A DNA stretch of 64,000 bases from NCBI GenBank assembly GCA_025934735.1, contig JAICWP010000001.1, positions 186,001 through 250,000 of the forward strand, read 5' to 3'. The translations under genes and the position numbers were made by a program. Numbering within the stretch: the first letter of the stretch is position 1; each line of letters starts with the position of its first letter. Below the pieces are notes generated by a model that worked only from the letters and a program-made list of their open reading frames with translations, ran no database searches and was not told the DNA's origin. The stretch is from Terriglobales bacterium (GTDB lineage: Bacteria > Acidobacteriota > Terriglobia > Terriglobales > Acidobacteriaceae). Below, piece after piece: positions 10,793 to 16,434 of the stretch.

Positions 10793-10989
10793 CTCTTCGT
10801 TCCCATGAACTTCGCTGGTTTGTTGTGCCTGATTGCAGATTGGCACACGCCACCCGGACCCCGCGAGAGGCATTATCGAGCTTCATAATGAGTTCTTAGG
10901 GTTCGACGAGCAAGGTTACGCACGTCTTAAGCCGTGCGATGGGACGGAGACAATTGCTCGGAACCCGACGAGAGAAAGGAGGAGAATGG

Positions 10990-11063
10990 TCGGGGCGATC
11001 GGATTTGAACCGATGACCCCCTGCGCCCAAGGCAGGTGCGCTACCAGGCTGCGCTACGCCCCG
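10990..11063 (-). tRNA. tRNA-Pro (anticodon UGG)
   Basis: On the minus strand the sequence folds as a complete cloverleaf: acceptor CGGGGCG/CGCCCCG with discriminator A, anticodon stem CCTGC/GCAGG enclosing a loop with anticodon TGG, and a T-arm with GGTTCAAATCC. The length is 74 nt and CCA is not encoded. It lies in the divergent gap between the regulatory-like-domain gene and the 2H phosphoesterase. Confidence 0.97.
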
Positions 11064-11174
11064 ACGAAACCGCGGCCCAGAGGGGGCCTGCACGGCGATT
11101 ATAAATGATCGCCGGTGCACGTCTGCTCCCGTCACCGCCTCGCTTCGACGCGGGGCGTATAATTCTTTCCAACC

Positions 11175-11729
11175 ATGCCGCCTGTGCACTACGCATTGGT
11201 CGCCTACGTGAAAGCGCCCGTGGGGGAATTTGTGGAGCGCCTGCGCGGCGAACTCCATCCCGCTCTCTCCCACCTGCCAGCCCATCTCACAGTCTTGCCC
11301 CCCCGCCCACTGCAGGGCAGCGAAGATGAAGCGCGCCAGGTGGTGGAGCGTATTTGCCGCAACGCCAGTCCCTTTGAGGTGGTCATGGGCGAGGTGGAGA
11401 CATTTATCCCCGTAACGCCCACGGTATTCATCCGCGTGGCCCATGCGGCCTACCGTCTGCGCGAGCTGCACGACCAGCTGAATATCCAGGCGTTGCAGGC
11501 GGAAGAGCCCTGGCCCTACATGCCCCATCTCACCATCGTCAAGGTGGGCACGCCGGAGGAGGCTAACAATGCCTTCCAGGTGGCCGAGCAGCGCTGGTCC
11601 CAATACCAGGGCAGCCGCCGTGTGCTCATCGAAGAGCTTACCTTCGTTCGGGAAGCCCCGGGCGAAACTTGGGAAGACCTGGCGCCTGTGCCCCTAGGTG
11701 GCAGCCTGGCGGTCAAACGCGGCCGCTGA
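11175..11729 (+). CDS. 2H phosphoesterase superfamily protein (2'-5' RNA ligase/LigT-like)
   Basis: A 184-residue protein with the two HxTx motifs that define the 2H superfamily: HLTVLPP near residue 37 and HLTIVKV near residue 118. Family members hydrolyse 2',3'-cyclic phosphodiesters or ligate 2'-5' RNA ends; the physiological substrate of most bacterial members is not known and cannot be inferred here. The spacing and length are normal. The ATG at 11175 lacks a strong ribosome-binding site. Its neighbours (tRNA-Pro upstream, nucleotide-sugar-dehydrogenase-like gene downstream) do not point to a pathway. Confidence 0.8.
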   Translation: MPPVHYALVAYVKAPVGEFVERLRGELHPALSHLPAHLTVLPPRPLQGSEDEARQVVERICRNASPFEVVMGEVETFIPVTPTVFIRVAHAAYRLRELHDQLNIQALQAEEPWPYMPHLTIVKVGTPEEANNAFQVAEQRWSQYQGSRRVLIEELTFVREAPGETWEDLAPVPLGGSLAVKRGR

Positions 11730-11958
11730 ACCTTGTTTCATAGCCCAGACGGTGGCCCTGCCTGCTCCATGCTGGCTCCGCCCCTTTCGGAAACCATTCT
11801 CCACCGGGAACCTCATTACCTAAGTTTTTCTGGTACACGTCCCCATGGTGCCCTTGCCACTACCCTCTGTGAGCTGTACATAAGGGGTGGGGTGTGCGGG
11901 CCGGTGAGGGCCGTGGCGTCGGCGTCCCGCCAACGCTAACTCTTGGAGCGAGTAGGGG

Positions 11959-13230
11959 ATGCTACCCATTGGGGTGTACGGCTCGGGATTTCTGGGAACA
12001 GTAATTTCCGCCTGTCTCGCCGATTTTGGCACTCCCGTTTTCTGCTGTGACCAGGATTCCGACCTCCTCCGGGCGCGCGCCAGCGGCGAGGTTCCCTTTC
12101 ACGAAAAAGATCTGCAGGAAGTGATTCGCCGCAACGTTCGCGTGGGCCGCCTGGTCTATTCCACCGACCTGCAGAAGCTGGTGCCCAATGCCCAGTTCAT
12201 GTTCCTGGCCCAGGATTCGGCCGTCGAAATTGACGAGTTGGCGGTGAGCCTCGCCCGCCTAATGGCCAAAGACACCATATTGATTCTGGCTACCCCGGTG
12301 GCGGTGGGCACGGCCAGCCGCATCGAGCGCAAGCTCAAGGATCACAAGCTGCATATCAACGTGGTTTCGCAACCTACTTTTCTTACCGATGGCTGCGCCG
12401 TGGAAGATTTCAACTGGCCGGAGCGCATCATTTTGGGCACGACTTCGGAAGCGGTGGTGAAGGCCATGAAGCAGATGTACCGCCCTCTGGTGATGCGCGG
12501 CGTGCCCGTGGTCAATATGAGTTTTGAAAGCGCGGAACTGGTGCGCCAGGCCACCACCGCTTTCCTCGCCGCCAAGATTTCATTCATCAACGAACTAGCG
12601 GGGCTGTGCGAGCGCGTGAAAGCCGATGCCATGGACGTCGGCCTGGGCCTGGGCTTAGACAAGAAGAAAATCGGCCCGCGCTGCCTGCAGCCGGGCTCGG
12701 TGTTTGCCGGGCCATTTGCCGAAGCCGACATGGAATCGCTGGCCGAGTTGGCGCGCCAGAACAATGTTTCCCTCCGTATTCTGGAGGCCGCCCGCGAGGT
12801 GAACCGCACGGTTACCGATTCGCTGGTGGATAAGATCACGAATGCCGTGGACCCGGTGGCAGGCAAGGAAGTAGGCATGCTGGGCCTGGCCTTCAAGCCC
12901 AATACCAACTCGGTGGTTGGTTCCTCTTCTCTGTGCCTGGCGCGCAGTCTTCTCTCCAAGGGCGCCAAGGTGCGGGCTTACGATCCGGTAGCCAATTCCC
13001 AGGCCAAGGCGGAACTGGAAGCGGTGCGCTATTGCGATTCCGCCTACGCCGCGGCCGAAGGCGTGGACGCGCTGGTGGTGGGCACCGGCTGGCCCGAGTT
13101 TCGCGACCTTGATTTTGCCCGCATCAAGCGCCTGCTCAAGCGCCCTATCATCGTGGACACGAAGAACCTGCTCGATGGCCCTAGCCTGCGGCAAATGGGC
13201 TTCCAGTACATCGGCGTAGGCCGCCGCTAA
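11959..13230 (+). CDS. UDP-glucose/GDP-mannose dehydrogenase homologue with lost catalytic residues
   Basis: A 423-residue protein with the whole UGD architecture: N-terminal NAD fold (GVYGSGFLGTVISA), central AELVRQATTAFLAAKISFINE helix, FLTDGCAVEDFNWPERIILG block and C-terminal domain (GLAFKPNTNSVVGSSSL). However, the residues that perform catalysis in this family are changed. The Lys/Asn pair of the K-Y-x-x-N motif is Arg196 and Thr200, and the nucleophilic Cys of GGSCFPKD is replaced in PGSVFAGPFAEAD (about Phe253), with the following Lys also gone. A four-electron oxidation of UDP-sugar by the usual mechanism is therefore unlikely; a binding/regulatory role or a different dehydrogenation is possible. 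The start is an ATG right after AGGGG. Confidence 0.8.
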   Translation: MLPIGVYGSGFLGTVISACLADFGTPVFCCDQDSDLLRARASGEVPFHEKDLQEVIRRNVRVGRLVYSTDLQKLVPNAQFMFLAQDSAVEIDELAVSLARLMAKDTILILATPVAVGTASRIERKLKDHKLHINVVSQPTFLTDGCAVEDFNWPERIILGTTSEAVVKAMKQMYRPLVMRGVPVVNMSFESAELVRQATTAFLAAKISFINELAGLCERVKADAMDVGLGLGLDKKKIGPRCLQPGSVFAGPFAEADMESLAELARQNNVSLRILEAAREVNRTVTDSLVDKITNAVDPVAGKEVGMLGLAFKPNTNSVVGSSSLCLARSLLSKGAKVRAYDPVANSQAKAELEAVRYCDSAYAAAEGVDALVVGTGWPEFRDLDFARIKRLLKRPIIVDTKNLLDGPSLRQMGFQYIGVGRR

Positions 13231-13435
13231 CCTATCCAATCCTTGCATCCCAGACCAGCCCCCCCGCAATGCTGCGCCGTTAAAGCCCAAGACGGAAGTC
13301 CTGGGTCAGCTTCGACAGGAGAGCCCAGTAGGAAATCGGCTTACCTTACGTTGCCCTTCGCCTGGGATGCCTCAGCCGTAAATGTCATGACGTTGTTTCG
13401 CTTCGGACGAAATTCTCGGGCTGTATTGTCGCCGT

Positions 13436-14482
13436 TTACGCGGTGCGTGGCAGCCAGTCCTCGAGGATGTCGTAGATTTTATCCAGGCGATGACCCCGGA
13501 GCGCGGCATAGATGGCGCCCGCGGCTCCGGCCATTCCGGCGAGGCCGAGCAGGAGGCGGCGGGAGTCCAGCCACCATTCCACGCTGTAGTCCCGCGCTCG
13601 GCGGTCGAAACTGCCGTGGGCTCCGTGGTCGCCGGGGACGGGTTCCCACAGATTATTCGGTCGGTTCGGATCCTCGCGGCCATCGTGCTGCTGCGCGTCG
13701 TATCCGTTGCGCGCCAGGTATTGGTCGAGCAGGCCAGGTGCCAACTTGTTACCCACAATCGCCTGCACGGTGGAGTGGCCGACGTAGTATTCGCGCCGCT
13801 GGGGATGATGAGCGGCGTAATAGATGGCGCGAGCCGCCACTTCCGGTTGAAAGATTGGGGGCACGGGCTGCGCTTTGCGCGGCAGCCGGCTCTTGACCCA
13901 CCCGAACTGGGGTGTGTTCAACGCCGGCATCTGCACCATGGTAGTGCGAACCTTGCTTTTGTCATGCAGCAGTTCGGTGCGCAACGAAGCATGGAAGCCG
14001 AGTACCGCGTGCTTGGCGGCGCAGTACGCGGCCTGCAGAGGGATGCTGCGGTATGCCAGCGCAGAGCCCACGTGCACAATGGTGCCGCGGTCGCGCGGTA
14101 GCATGCGTTTCAGGGCAGAAAGCGTGCCATTAACGTAACCGAGGTAGGTGACCTCGGTGACGCGCTTGAATTCTTCGGCCGTCATTTTCTTAATGGGCGA
14201 GAAGACGGAGGCCATGGCATCGTTGATCCAGATATCAATGGGCCCCAGCTTGGCTTCGACGCGCGCGGCCGCCTTTTCTACCTGCTCGGCATCGGCGACG
14301 TCCGTAGGCAGGACCAGGGCCTTGCCGCCCTCGGCTTCCACTTCGCGGCGGGCGCCTTCCAGTCCATCGTGCCCGCGGGCGATGAGTCCGATCCAGGCGC
14401 CGTGTTTGGCGAACTCGCGAACGGTGGCCCGTCCGAGTCCTGCGGAGGCTCCGGTAATAACAACTACTTCGTGTTTGGACAT
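13436..14482 (-). CDS. SDR-family oxidoreductase with C-terminal membrane helix
   Basis: NAD(P)-dependent short-chain dehydrogenase. The cofactor motif is GASAGLGRA (residues 11-19) and the active site is Ser140, Tyr153 and Lys157 (YCAAK). Beyond the normal 250-residue SDR fold it has about 90 extra residues: a charged linker (DGREDPNRPNNLWEP), then one hydrophobic helix near 310-328 and a short charged tail. The extension probably tethers the enzyme to the membrane. The loop usually written NAG reads NDA. The substrate cannot be deduced. It lies downstream of the ThDP enzyme on the same strand, separated by about 200 bp containing palindromic repeats, so co-transcription is uncertain. Confidence 0.82.
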   Translation of the reverse strand: MSKHEVVVITGASAGLGRATVREFAKHGAWIGLIARGHDGLEGARREVEAEGGKALVLPTDVADAEQVEKAAARVEAKLGPIDIWINDAMASVFSPIKKMTAEEFKRVTEVTYLGYVNGTLSALKRMLPRDRGTIVHVGSALAYRSIPLQAAYCAAKHAVLGFHASLRTELLHDKSKVRTTMVQMPALNTPQFGWVKSRLPRKAQPVPPIFQPEVAARAIYYAAHHPQRREYYVGHSTVQAIVGNKLAPGLLDQYLARNGYDAQQHDGREDPNRPNNLWEPVPGDHGAHGSFDRRARDYSVEWWLDSRRLLLGLAGMAGAAGAIYAALRGHRLDKIYDILEDWLPRTA

Positions 14483-14497
14483 ATAGTCTTAGTCTCA

Positions 14498-14612
14498 AGG
14501 GGCTAAAGCCCCGGTGTATTTATGCGTGAAGGTTCCCCGGGCTGAAGCCCGGGGCTTCCACGAAACTGCGTCGCTTCTCGTGCCAGGGCTAAAGCCCGGG
14601 GCTTCCACGGCG
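14498..14612. repeat. Cluster of three REP-like palindromic repeats
   Basis: Three copies of a short palindromic module lie in the gap between the ThDP enzyme and the SDR. They are GGGGCTAAAGCCCC at 14499-14512, CCCCGGGCTGAAGCCCGGGG at 14535-14554 and AGGGCTAAAGCCCGGGG at about 14585-14601; the last two are each followed by CTTCCACG. Each can form a hairpin with a TAAA or TGAA loop. Repeats of this kind are scattered through many acidobacterial genomes. They could act as transcript ends or as REP elements; no T-run follows them. Confidence 0.7.
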
Positions 14613-14685
14613 GTGCGTTGCTTCTGTTTCCAAGTCGTCACGCTAAAGGCGTGCGCAACATGCGCTCGGGATTGCCTACAATGGC

Positions 14686-16434
14686 CTACACCATCTCCCG
14701 CACCTTGTCGGAAGCCACGGTGAGCGCGATCTTCTTGCGGTTGGGCTCGCCGCGGGCCAGGGACTCGGCAAAGTGCAGCGCCTGTTCGGCCTTGACTTTG
14801 CCGGGCATCGGCGGCTCCAGCGGATCCACCACGGCCTGCAGAATCGCCGGTCCGGGCGCATTCAGAAACGCGTCAATGGTGTCGCCACACTCCTTGGGAT
14901 CATCCACTGTGAACCCCACGCCGCCACAGGCGTGCGCGAACTCGGCAAAGTCTATGGGGTGCAGCTGGACTCCATACTCGGGGTTGCCCAGAAACACCAT
15001 CTGCTCCCACTTGATCTGGCCCAGCGTGTCATTCTTGATGATGACGACCTTGATGGGCAGCTTGTATTTCACCGCGGTCACGAAGTCAGCCATCAGCATG
15101 GAGAAACCGCCATCGCCGACAAACGCGACACACTGGCGGTTCGGATAGGCGACCTGCGCCGCGAGCGTGTAGGGCAGGCCGGGCGCCATGGTCGCCAGAG
15201 TGCCGGACAGGCTGTGCATTTGTCCTTTGCGGGCGGGAATGTGCCGCGCCCACCAGGTGGCAATGGTGCCGCTATCGCAACTGACAATCGCGTCGTCACG
15301 CAAGCGCTTGCCCAGTTCCCATGCAGGAACCTGCGGCTTCATGGGCTTGTCCATGCGCGTGGCCTGTTTCTCCATGCGCTCCCACCAGTCCTTCATGCCA
15401 GCCTGCGCCATCTTCAGGAAGCCGCGGTCCTCTGTGCGCTTTAAAAGCGGTATCAGGTGCTGCAGCACGGTCTTACTGTCACCCACCAAGCCGACATCCA
15501 CGGGATACCGTAATGCGATGCGCTTGGGGTCAATATCAATTTGCACGCCCTTGGCCTGCCCAGGTTTGGGCAGGAATTCGAGGTAGGGAAAGGAAGTGCC
15601 CACCATCAACAGGGTGTCGCAGTCTTCCATGATTTCCTGGGACGGCGCCGTGCCCAGCAGTCCGACAGGCCCAGTGGTGTAGGGGCTGTCATCCGGAATA
15701 ACCGATTTGCCCAGCAACGGTTTGGCGATAGGCGCGGCGAGCAGTTCAGCGACCTGCTCCAGCAATTCGCCGGCACCGAGGGCTCCGCGCCCGGCCAGGA
15801 TGGCGACCTTCTTACCCTGGTTGAGAATCTCAGCCGCACGCTGCAGTTCGCTTTCTGCCGGTACCTTGTAGCTCTGCGTACGCACCGCGTTGGTGAAGTT
15901 GGCGAGGTTGCGCTTGGAACGGTCCCAGCTGTGTACCTTTTCTTCCTGGAAATCCACCGGAATGGTGATATGGGCCACGCCGCGATAGGCCAGCGCGGTG
16001 CGGCAGGCCAGGTCCATCACATTTTGTACGTGGGTGGGTCCCATGACGCGCTCGTTATAAACGCACACGTCCATGAACAGCTTGTCGGTTTCGACATCCT
16101 GCTGCGTGAAGGTTCCGATCAGGTCGTGGTACTGCATGCCAGTGATAGCGAGCACGGGCTGGCCGTCGAGGCGCGCATCATAGAGGCCGTTCAGCAGGTG
16201 AATGGCGCCCGGTCCTGACGTGGCCAGGCACACACCCAGCCTCCCGGTGTATTTGGCGTAGCCGCAGGCCATGAAGGCGGCGGTCTCTTCGTGGCGCACT
16301 TGCAGGAACCGGATCTTGTCCTGGTGGGTGCGCAGGGCCTCCATGATTCCGTTAATGCCGTCTCCCGGCAGCCCAAACACCACTTCTACTCCCCAATCAA
16401 TCAAGCACTCGACGAGCACATCAGACGCGGTCAT
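14686..16434 (-). CDS. ThDP-dependent pyruvate oxidase / quinone-dependent pyruvate dehydrogenase-like enzyme
   Basis: A 582-residue member of the acetolactate synthase/pyruvate oxidase family. The catalytic Glu is in VRHEETAAFMA (about residue 49), and the Mg-ThDP motif runs GDGGFSMLMADF to KNDTLG (about 437-470). The central domain carries the FAD-binding-type fold (ILAGRGALGAGELLEQVAELL, DIDPKRIA). Overall it reads like PoxB or a bacterial pyruvate oxidase, oxidatively decarboxylating pyruvate to acetate or acetyl phosphate. The C-terminal tail is short (VASDKVREMV), and a PoxB-like lipid-binding peptide is not evident. The ATG follows GGGAG by six bases. It is divergent from the enolase-superfamily gene; a sugar-acid lyase of the same fold is an alternative. 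Confidence 0.82.
   Translation of the reverse strand: MTASDVLVECLIDWGVEVVFGLPGDGINGIMEALRTHQDKIRFLQVRHEETAAFMACGYAKYTGRLGVCLATSGPGAIHLLNGLYDARLDGQPVLAITGMQYHDLIGTFTQQDVETDKLFMDVCVYNERVMGPTHVQNVMDLACRTALAYRGVAHITIPVDFQEEKVHSWDRSKRNLANFTNAVRTQSYKVPAESELQRAAEILNQGKKVAILAGRGALGAGELLEQVAELLAAPIAKPLLGKSVIPDDSPYTTGPVGLLGTAPSQEIMEDCDTLLMVGTSFPYLEFLPKPGQAKGVQIDIDPKRIALRYPVDVGLVGDSKTVLQHLIPLLKRTEDRGFLKMAQAGMKDWWERMEKQATRMDKPMKPQVPAWELGKRLRDDAIVSCDSGTIATWWARHIPARKGQMHSLSGTLATMAPGLPYTLAAQVAYPNRQCVAFVGDGGFSMLMADFVTAVKYKLPIKVVIIKNDTLGQIKWEQMVFLGNPEYGVQLHPIDFAEFAHACGGVGFTVDDPKECGDTIDAFLNAPGPAILQAVVDPLEPPMPGKVKAEQALHFAESLARGEPNRKKIALTVASDKVREMV

Follow-up and report, generated by a model that had tools for sequence, protein, structure and literature searches.

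Introduction

Canonical UDP-glucose 6-dehydrogenases (UGDs; EC 1.1.1.22), which produce UDP-glucuronic acid, are NAD-dependent two-step oxidoreductases, and their Cys, Lys, and Asn residues were conserved in all 41 canonical sequences that we compared. In the human enzyme, UGDH, Asn224 and Glu161 have catalytic roles. The portion of the published work on human UGDH that is used here describes roles for Thr131, Lys220, Cys276, Asp280, and Arg260, with Lys220 stabilizing charge and Asp280 activating water; the C276A mutant does not complete the reaction from UDP-glucose, and mutation of Lys220 lowers activity without abolishing it (PMC3184952). In that same portion, Asn224 appears only as a neighbor of Cys276 and Glu161 only by way of a mutant (PMC3184952). 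The solved structures closest in sequence to the protein described below are UgdG (4a7p; 6.8e-85), 3gg2, and BceC (2y0c-e). Metabolic enzymes have also given rise to pseudoenzymes, in which the fold and the ligand shell are kept and catalytic residues are fixed as noncatalytic ones, and our protein is like them, at the level of this general concept, in both its retained fold and its fixed replacements. A search of the literature, which covered open-licence papers only, showed no description of a catalytically dead UGD subfamily among the papers listed.

Here, we analyzed a 64,000-nucleotide stretch of DNA from a Terriglobales bacterium (the window), which encodes a UGD-fold protein that we refer to as psUGD (Table 1). 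It is a variant within a known fold family and not a new kind of system, and the gene most likely is not broken but encodes a functional protein that has taken on a new role.

Table 1. Features of the psUGD locus, in window coordinates; orthologue and canonical counts are rows of the alignment
Feature	Positions	Strand	Details
tRNA-Pro (TGG) gene	10987..11063	-	Transcribed divergently to 2H gene; belongs to conserved block
LigT-like 2H phosphoesterase gene (PF13563)	11175..11729	+	Both H-x-T/S motifs; immediate upstream neighbor of psUGD
Conserved promoter-like element upstream of psUGD	11833..11882	+	GTACACG 11833-11839; TTGCCA 11854-11859; 17-nt spacer; TACATA 11877-11882
psUGD, UGD-fold protein without UGD catalytic residues	11959..13230	+	423 aa; ATG start
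Codon 113, Pro for Thr of STVPVGT (human Thr131)	12295..12297	+	P 63/63 versus T 41/41 canonical
Codon 140, Thr in window protein for Glu of PEFLREG (human Glu161)	12376..12378	+	Orthologue alignment
Codon 196, Arg for conserved Lys (human Lys220)	12544..12546	+	R 63/63 versus K 41/41 canonical
Codon 200, Thr for conserved Asn (human Asn224)	12556..12558	+	T 63/63 versus N 41/41 canonical
Codon 253, Phe for nucleophilic Cys (human Cys276)	12715..12717	+	F 63/63 versus C 41/41 canonical

Domain composition and predicted structure of psUGD

Our analyses revealed that psUGD matches all three Pfam domains of the UGD family over most of their length (NAD-binding, residues 4 to 171; central, 190 to 283; UDP-binding, 307 to 406), with scores of 85.8, 78.1, and 99.8 bits for PF03721, PF00984, and PF03720 against cut-offs of 27, 25.4, and 30, respectively. 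The protein also exceeds the cut-off of the nucleotide-sugar dehydrogenase model TIGR03026 (275.5 versus 189.8 bits) but does not reach that of the TuaD equivalog NF047673 (309.9 versus 700 bits). Because psUGD passes TIGR03026, an NCBIfam model, automatic annotation is likely to label it as an enzyme, which it probably is not.

Two models of the psUGD structure were predicted. The first, for which a shallow alignment of 39 orthologues was used, was of middling quality (pLDDT 80.4, pTM 0.63) and best matched 1mfz, which raised the possibility of a GDP-mannose-dehydrogenase-like domain arrangement. The second, built from 52 sequences of which 26 were canonical, scored better (pLDDT 91.0, pTM 0.84) and matched the bacterial UGDs 4a7p, 3gg2, and 2y0c-e instead, at rmsd values of 1.7 to 1.9. 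Since the deeper, better-scoring model matched bacterial UGDs, we took the 1mfz match to be a modeling artefact and rejected the GDP-mannose-dehydrogenase-like arrangement. The 26 canonical sequences pull the second model toward UGD, and thus its match to UgdG (Foldseek TM 0.93; VIA Z 47.4, with an rmsd of 1.7 over 416 aligned residues) speaks for a compatible fold and not for function. The predicted fold contains the two Rossmann domains and the long helix that joins them. Its lowest-confidence part is the loop of residues 231 to 250, in which the nucleotide-binding PGxGxGG stretch begins. UgdG and BceC, which are ∼35 to 38% identical to psUGD, share with it a fold over the whole length (TM 0.93 to 0.94 and VIA Z 45 to 47, psUGD being represented by a model), the GxGYxG and GG nucleotide loops, and the lysine of FKP. 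Unlike in UgdG and BceC, the conserved Thr, Glu, Lys, Asn, and Cys and the arginines of TDDxR and DGR are replaced in psUGD, and nine residues are deleted.

Conserved residues replaced in the psUGD group

For residue counts, we compared 63 orthologue rows (58 of them distinct in the last 300 residues) with 41 canonical rows, namely 38 from the class and phylum searches described below, two from the family of the window (L002 and L071), and one Omnitrophota record; the remoter paralogues L003, L004, and L005 of the window's own genome were excluded beforehand. The alignment of psUGD with canonical UGDs was gap-free at the key sites. The psUGD sequence AELVRQATT aligned with AELIKYASN-type sequences, which places Arg196 at the conserved Lys and Thr200 at the conserved Asn, and PGSVFAGPFAEAD aligned with PGxGFGGSCFPKD, which places Phe253 at the nucleophilic Cys. 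Human UGDH numbers were provisionally assigned to window residues by motif and position.

The first-pass annotation of this DNA had read Arg, Thr, and Phe in place of Lys, Asn, and Cys in a protein with otherwise complete UGD architecture. Indeed, R196, T200, and F253 were found in every one of the 63 orthologue rows, against K, N, and C in every canonical row, a split that lies far beyond chance; the resulting RxxxT plus F signature provides a simple definition of the psUGD group. As for the architecture, the predicted fold bears the annotation out, as the model confidence and the Z score to 4a7p given above attest, but the GTPxxxDG loop does not, as nine residues are missing from it. Likewise, all three named residues have been replaced, but the extent of the change was under-reported, with the equivalents of Thr131 and Glu161, the arginines of DGR and TDDxR, and the loop also being altered.

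Specifically, the window protein is the only one to carry Thr at position 140, where Met, Val, Leu, and Ile occupy 34, 10, 10, and 8 of the orthologue rows, respectively. In all 63 rows, the Arg of DGR(N) has become Lys402, the Arg of TDDxR is lost, and the Gly of VGTP has become Asp86, with the Thr-Pro of VGTP no longer conserved; the Arg of FLREG is Thr in 60 rows and Ser in three. The deletion in the GTPxxxDG loop, which we take to lie on the coenzyme side, falls after residue 88 in the first Rossmann domain. Asp31, at the position where the NAD-binding fold usually has an acidic residue, is kept in 17 of the 63 rows, with His in 43 and Gly in three. Asp257, the Asp of PKD (human Asp280), is present in the window protein and in 53 of the 63 rows, with Glu, Asn, or Gln in the other 10, and position 111 is Val in 44 rows. 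Common to the psUGD and canonical rows are G8, G10, G246, G251, K313, D342, P343, W378, D400, and N403; Y11 and G250 are also common to both groups, but are Phe and Ala, respectively, in the window protein.

Thus, none of Thr131, Glu161, Lys220, Asn224, and Cys276 is retained at the equivalent position, and at four of these five positions a new residue (Pro, Arg, Thr, or Phe) has become fixed. Because five of the six named residues have been replaced together, psUGD has almost certainly lost UDP-glucose oxidation, as far as can be judged from its residues.

Possible roles of psUGD

On balance, we favor the reading that psUGD is a neofunctionalized, dehydrogenase-dead protein that binds a nucleotide or nucleotide-sugar and acts as a sensor or subunit. 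UDP-glucose 6-dehydrogenase chemistry would have disappeared from the subfamily, which would have been retained for a different role, and the two Rossmann domains of psUGD would hold a nucleotide or nucleotide-sugar between them. The domain closure of UGDs would then be reused as a binding switch, the ligand not being oxidized, and psUGD would serve either as a sensor or as a subunit, perhaps of the canonical UGD, with a regulatory or scaffold function. The first-pass annotation had offered a nucleotide-sugar sensor and a different reaction side by side; we tentatively prefer a sensor or subunit to new chemistry because the losses extend beyond Cys to Lys, Asn, Glu, and Thr and because the first Rossmann domain has a deletion in a conserved loop. 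Against the favored reading, the mostly retained Asp257 and GxGYxG motif may leave room for redox or other chemistry, and the fixed Arg196, Thr200, and Phe253 could equally constitute a new active site.

It is possible, if less probable, that psUGD is an enzyme of new specificity, in which Arg196, Thr200, Phe253, and a hydrophobic residue 140 form a reshaped active site for a different nucleotide-linked substrate, with a nonredox step or a single oxidation as its possible reaction. Consistent with this, the replacements are fixed and not drifting (R196, T200, F253, P113, D86, and K402 are each invariant among the orthologues), Asp257 is kept in most rows together with the GxGYxG glycines, and the pocket would be apolar (Met, Val, Leu, or Ile at position 140 in 62 of 63 rows, along with Phe253 and, in 44 rows, Val111), as if for a less polar ligand. 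However, with Lys and Asn gone, the loop of the NAD domain deleted, and Asp31 mostly lost, ordinary NAD-dependent hydride transfer would have to rely on new residues, and the neighboring genes, which apart from a 2H phosphoesterase gene are mostly unshared between loci, indicate no pathway.

Gene neighborhood of psUGD

The 2H gene that precedes psUGD scored 84.3 bits against PF13563 (cut-off 27) and 25 bits against the RNA 2′,3′-cyclic phosphodiesterase equivalog TIGR02258, short of its cut-off of 65.7, and both H-x-T/S motifs were intact in all 31 of the 2H rows. With neighbors called as crude open reading frames of at least 90 aa, the 2H gene was found directly upstream of psUGD in 29 of the 38 loci with upstream sequence and within 5 kb in two more (L043 and L063), and the other neighbors were mostly shuffled between loci. 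The remaining seven loci had no nearby 2H gene. In three of these (L057, L061, and L070) it was located on another contig, and in the other four (L050, L051, L055, and L056, of genera g50 and g54) no 2H gene was found in the genome except for a weak 30% match in G049 (E 5.6e-5). Downstream of psUGD in the window, on the opposite strand, a short-chain dehydrogenase and a TPP enzyme gene occupy positions 13436-16434; no relatives of them were present in the other 40 loci compared.

A divergent tRNA-Pro gene was located at most 4.5 kb upstream of psUGD in 24 of 39 loci, and a codirectional tRNA-His gene at most 1.5 kb downstream in 27 of 39, some loci having little flanking sequence. Both tRNA genes flanked psUGD in 18 of the 39 loci; the window locus has tRNA-Pro only. 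We also searched 21 genomes that lack both psUGD and the 2H gene with the tRNA-Pro sequence. Twelve of these showed tRNA-Pro and tRNA-His within 1.5 kb of each other, and the other nine had no such pair in the DNA examined. A DUF4112 gene (PF13430) was found between the two tRNA genes in 10 of the 12 paired genomes (L167, L168, L174, L175, L178-L182, and L186), and in two the spacer was shorter than 200 nt. In five psUGD loci (L048, at 11104-11613, L060, L062, L063, and L072), a DUF4112 gene is likewise located between tRNA-Pro and the 2H gene. In genus g55 (L130, L135, and L147), the 2H gene leads straight into tRNA-His with no psUGD between them, and the tRNA-Pro/2H/tRNA-His arrangement is kept. 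This order is retained across many genera despite shuffling elsewhere (L036-L074, L130, and L147). Taken together, these arrangements place psUGD in an old gene block that can lack either psUGD or the 2H gene. An Rfam scan of positions 10900-13600 returned tRNA and no other structured RNA.

Among 150 genomes, 60 contained both psUGD and the 2H gene, eight psUGD only, 10 the 2H gene only, and 72 neither (the 30% match in G049 was not counted), for which a Fisher test gave P = 2.5e-22. An rpoB tree was constructed from 28 family genomes and two outgroups, chosen to include all four psUGD/2H states. In this tree, whose inner branches were poorly resolved, the nine sampled family genomes lacking both genes (of the 72) formed one clade with support of 100/100, and three independent pairs on supported branches differed in psUGD; these pairs showed no association with the 2H gene and were too few for a test. 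Because the sampled family genomes lacking both genes form a single clade, leaving three independent pairs, the 2×2 table is not independent evidence, and we did not take co-occurrence as support for a psUGD–2H coupling. The adjacency of psUGD and the 2H gene is real, but their mutual dependence is at most putative. As the tRNA genes and the DUF4112 gene share the synteny, the linkage may be mere conserved gene order.

A promoter-like element, the hexamers of which were identified by eye, is located upstream of psUGD. The window copy of its first part, GTACACG, is one mismatch from GTACATG and lies ∼126 nt before the psUGD start. In 21 of 39 loci (search span 260 nt; one locus had 8 nt upstream), exact GTACATG preceded the start codon by 68 to 166 nt, compared to a mean of 0.24 loci and a maximum of three in 300 draws of first-order resampled sequence. 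Most of the remaining loci contained a one-mismatch copy, and seven of the 39 contained neither form (L059, L061, L062, L064, L070, L074, and L075, the last with 8 nt of upstream sequence available). By eye, the alignments of the loci showed GTACATG followed by TTGC(C/G)A and, often, ∼17 nt on, by a TAnAnT-like hexamer; outside this promoter-like part, the 5′ leader aligned poorly. Exact GTACATG is also kept upstream of psUGD in the four loci without a genomic 2H gene. A regulon search with GTACATG..GTTGC resulted in eight matches in 10 genomes (zero to two each), three of which were the psUGD upstream sites themselves, against seven for a reversed control. Genome-wide matches being not above the control, the search gave no clue to a regulon sharing the element, and the GTACATG-type element appears to be locus-specific. 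Together, the upstream element and the gene context make the function of psUGD testable in cultivable relatives.

These data bear on whether psUGD and the LigT/2H phosphoesterase act together, as a system of two genes, in the metabolism of tRNA or cyclic phosphates, such that psUGD senses a nucleotide and controls the phosphoesterase. The frequent adjacency of the two genes among otherwise shuffled neighbors, the intact 2H motifs, and the 18 loci flanked by tRNA-Pro and tRNA-His point in this direction, and the proximity of tRNA genes may offer a clue to the 2H substrate. In the part of the study of E. coli LigT used here, the protein binds tRNA and NADP+ in vitro, with tRNA as its true ligand left open (PMC5283653); LigT therefore gives no firm lead. 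We nonetheless regard such a system as unlikely, given the seven loci without a nearby 2H gene, the tRNA-Pro/2H/tRNA-His arrangement without psUGD in genus g55, the separate promoter-like element of psUGD that is present also in four loci lacking the 2H gene, the lack of association in the three independent pairs, and the synteny shared by the tRNA and DUF4112 genes. A more elaborate version, to which we give little credence, would have psUGD sense a nucleotide, a nucleotide-sugar, or an RNA-repair by-product and act via the 2H phosphoesterase, within a tRNA-Pro/2H/psUGD/tRNA-His block and under its own promoter. If true, this would connect nucleotide-sugar status with tRNA or RNA-end metabolism through a new type of link.

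Occurrence, descent, and selection of the psUGD group

Orthologues of psUGD were found in at least 68 of 150 genomes of the window's family, the full-length ones being 54 to 65% identical to it and some being partial at contig ends. Among the matches listed for these genomes, a clear gap separates the orthologues from the other UGDs, which are at most 39% identical. When 200 genomes of the order were sampled, 53 matched at E ≤1e-90, all of them from the window's own family, to which some of the nonmatching genomes may also belong. At E 1e-90 or better, the only matches considered in the class and phylum searches, so that more divergent members could be missed, 13 of 200 class genomes matched (four from the window's family and nine from family f9, at 39 to 43% identity), as did 41 of 247 phylum genomes (two from the window's family). 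The motifs of 38 nonfamily loci from the class and phylum were read, with 11 phylum matches left out. These canonical UGDs of other families (L089-L126) are the nearest sequences outside the psUGD group, 37 to 43% identical, and, unlike psUGD, have the full catalytic set in all 38 loci. A scan of genome contigs beyond the family detected one Omnitrophota locus with canonical motifs, and each of the 484 records from a plasmid search was below 60% identity (36.6% for the best of the eight listed). Within the sequences examined, the psUGD group appears confined to one family.

The genome of the window contains four further UGD-fold matches. Among them is a complete UGD (L002) with STVPVYT, PEFLREG, the Lys and Asn, and GGSCFPKD. 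In a tree that combined 19 psUGD rows with 26 others, psUGD formed a single clade (support 100/100); its stem measured 1.51 changes per site, and branch lengths beyond the stem were ordinary. The clade fell inside the canonical UGDs, where its placement beside the family f9 sequences was weakly supported (82/64). We read psUGD as a distinct, UGD-derived subfamily that has been inherited mainly vertically. A change of function predicts a burst of change and then ordinary constrained evolution, as found in this tree.

The reading frame was open in all 39 psUGD copies checked at the codon level, and NG86 dN/dS values in the 25 closest pairs were 0.017 to 0.080, at dS values of 0.5 to 2.5 that were often near saturation. 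psUGD is under strong purifying selection. The first-pass annotation had proposed a change of function rather than decay and had suggested a search for homologues with the same substitutions and for a normal UGD elsewhere in the genome. Both were found, the former as one clade carrying Arg, Thr, and Phe throughout and the latter as L002, and with the low dN/dS values they support that proposal. That Phe, Arg, and Thr are fixed under strong selection suggests that the UGD fold can be reused without dehydrogenase chemistry.

Two further explanations fare poorly. That psUGD is still a dehydrogenase of UDP-glucose or a related substrate, with unusual catalytic residues, would agree with its TIGR03026 score, its mostly retained Asp257 and GxGYxG glycines, and the residual activity of human UGDH after Lys220 mutation in the portion of that work used here (PMC3184952), but it is highly improbable given the joint loss of Cys, Lys, Asn, Glu, and Thr, the changes in the NAD-binding domain, and the score well under the TuaD cut-off. 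A decaying pseudogene, which the loss of catalytic residues taken alone and an internal stop in one partial copy (in G052) would fit, is ruled out for practical purposes by the open frames, the dN/dS values, the identical replacements in all orthologue rows, and the conserved upstream element.

One of the other paralogues in the window's own genome, L003 (C42:62791-64074, minus strand), carries Thr in place of the nucleophilic Cys in AGGTLARD and passes TIGR03026 (304.7 bits). Like psUGD, it has a UGD fold without the Cys; unlike psUGD, it keeps the Glu, Lys, and Asn and falls outside the psUGD clade, on a very long branch.
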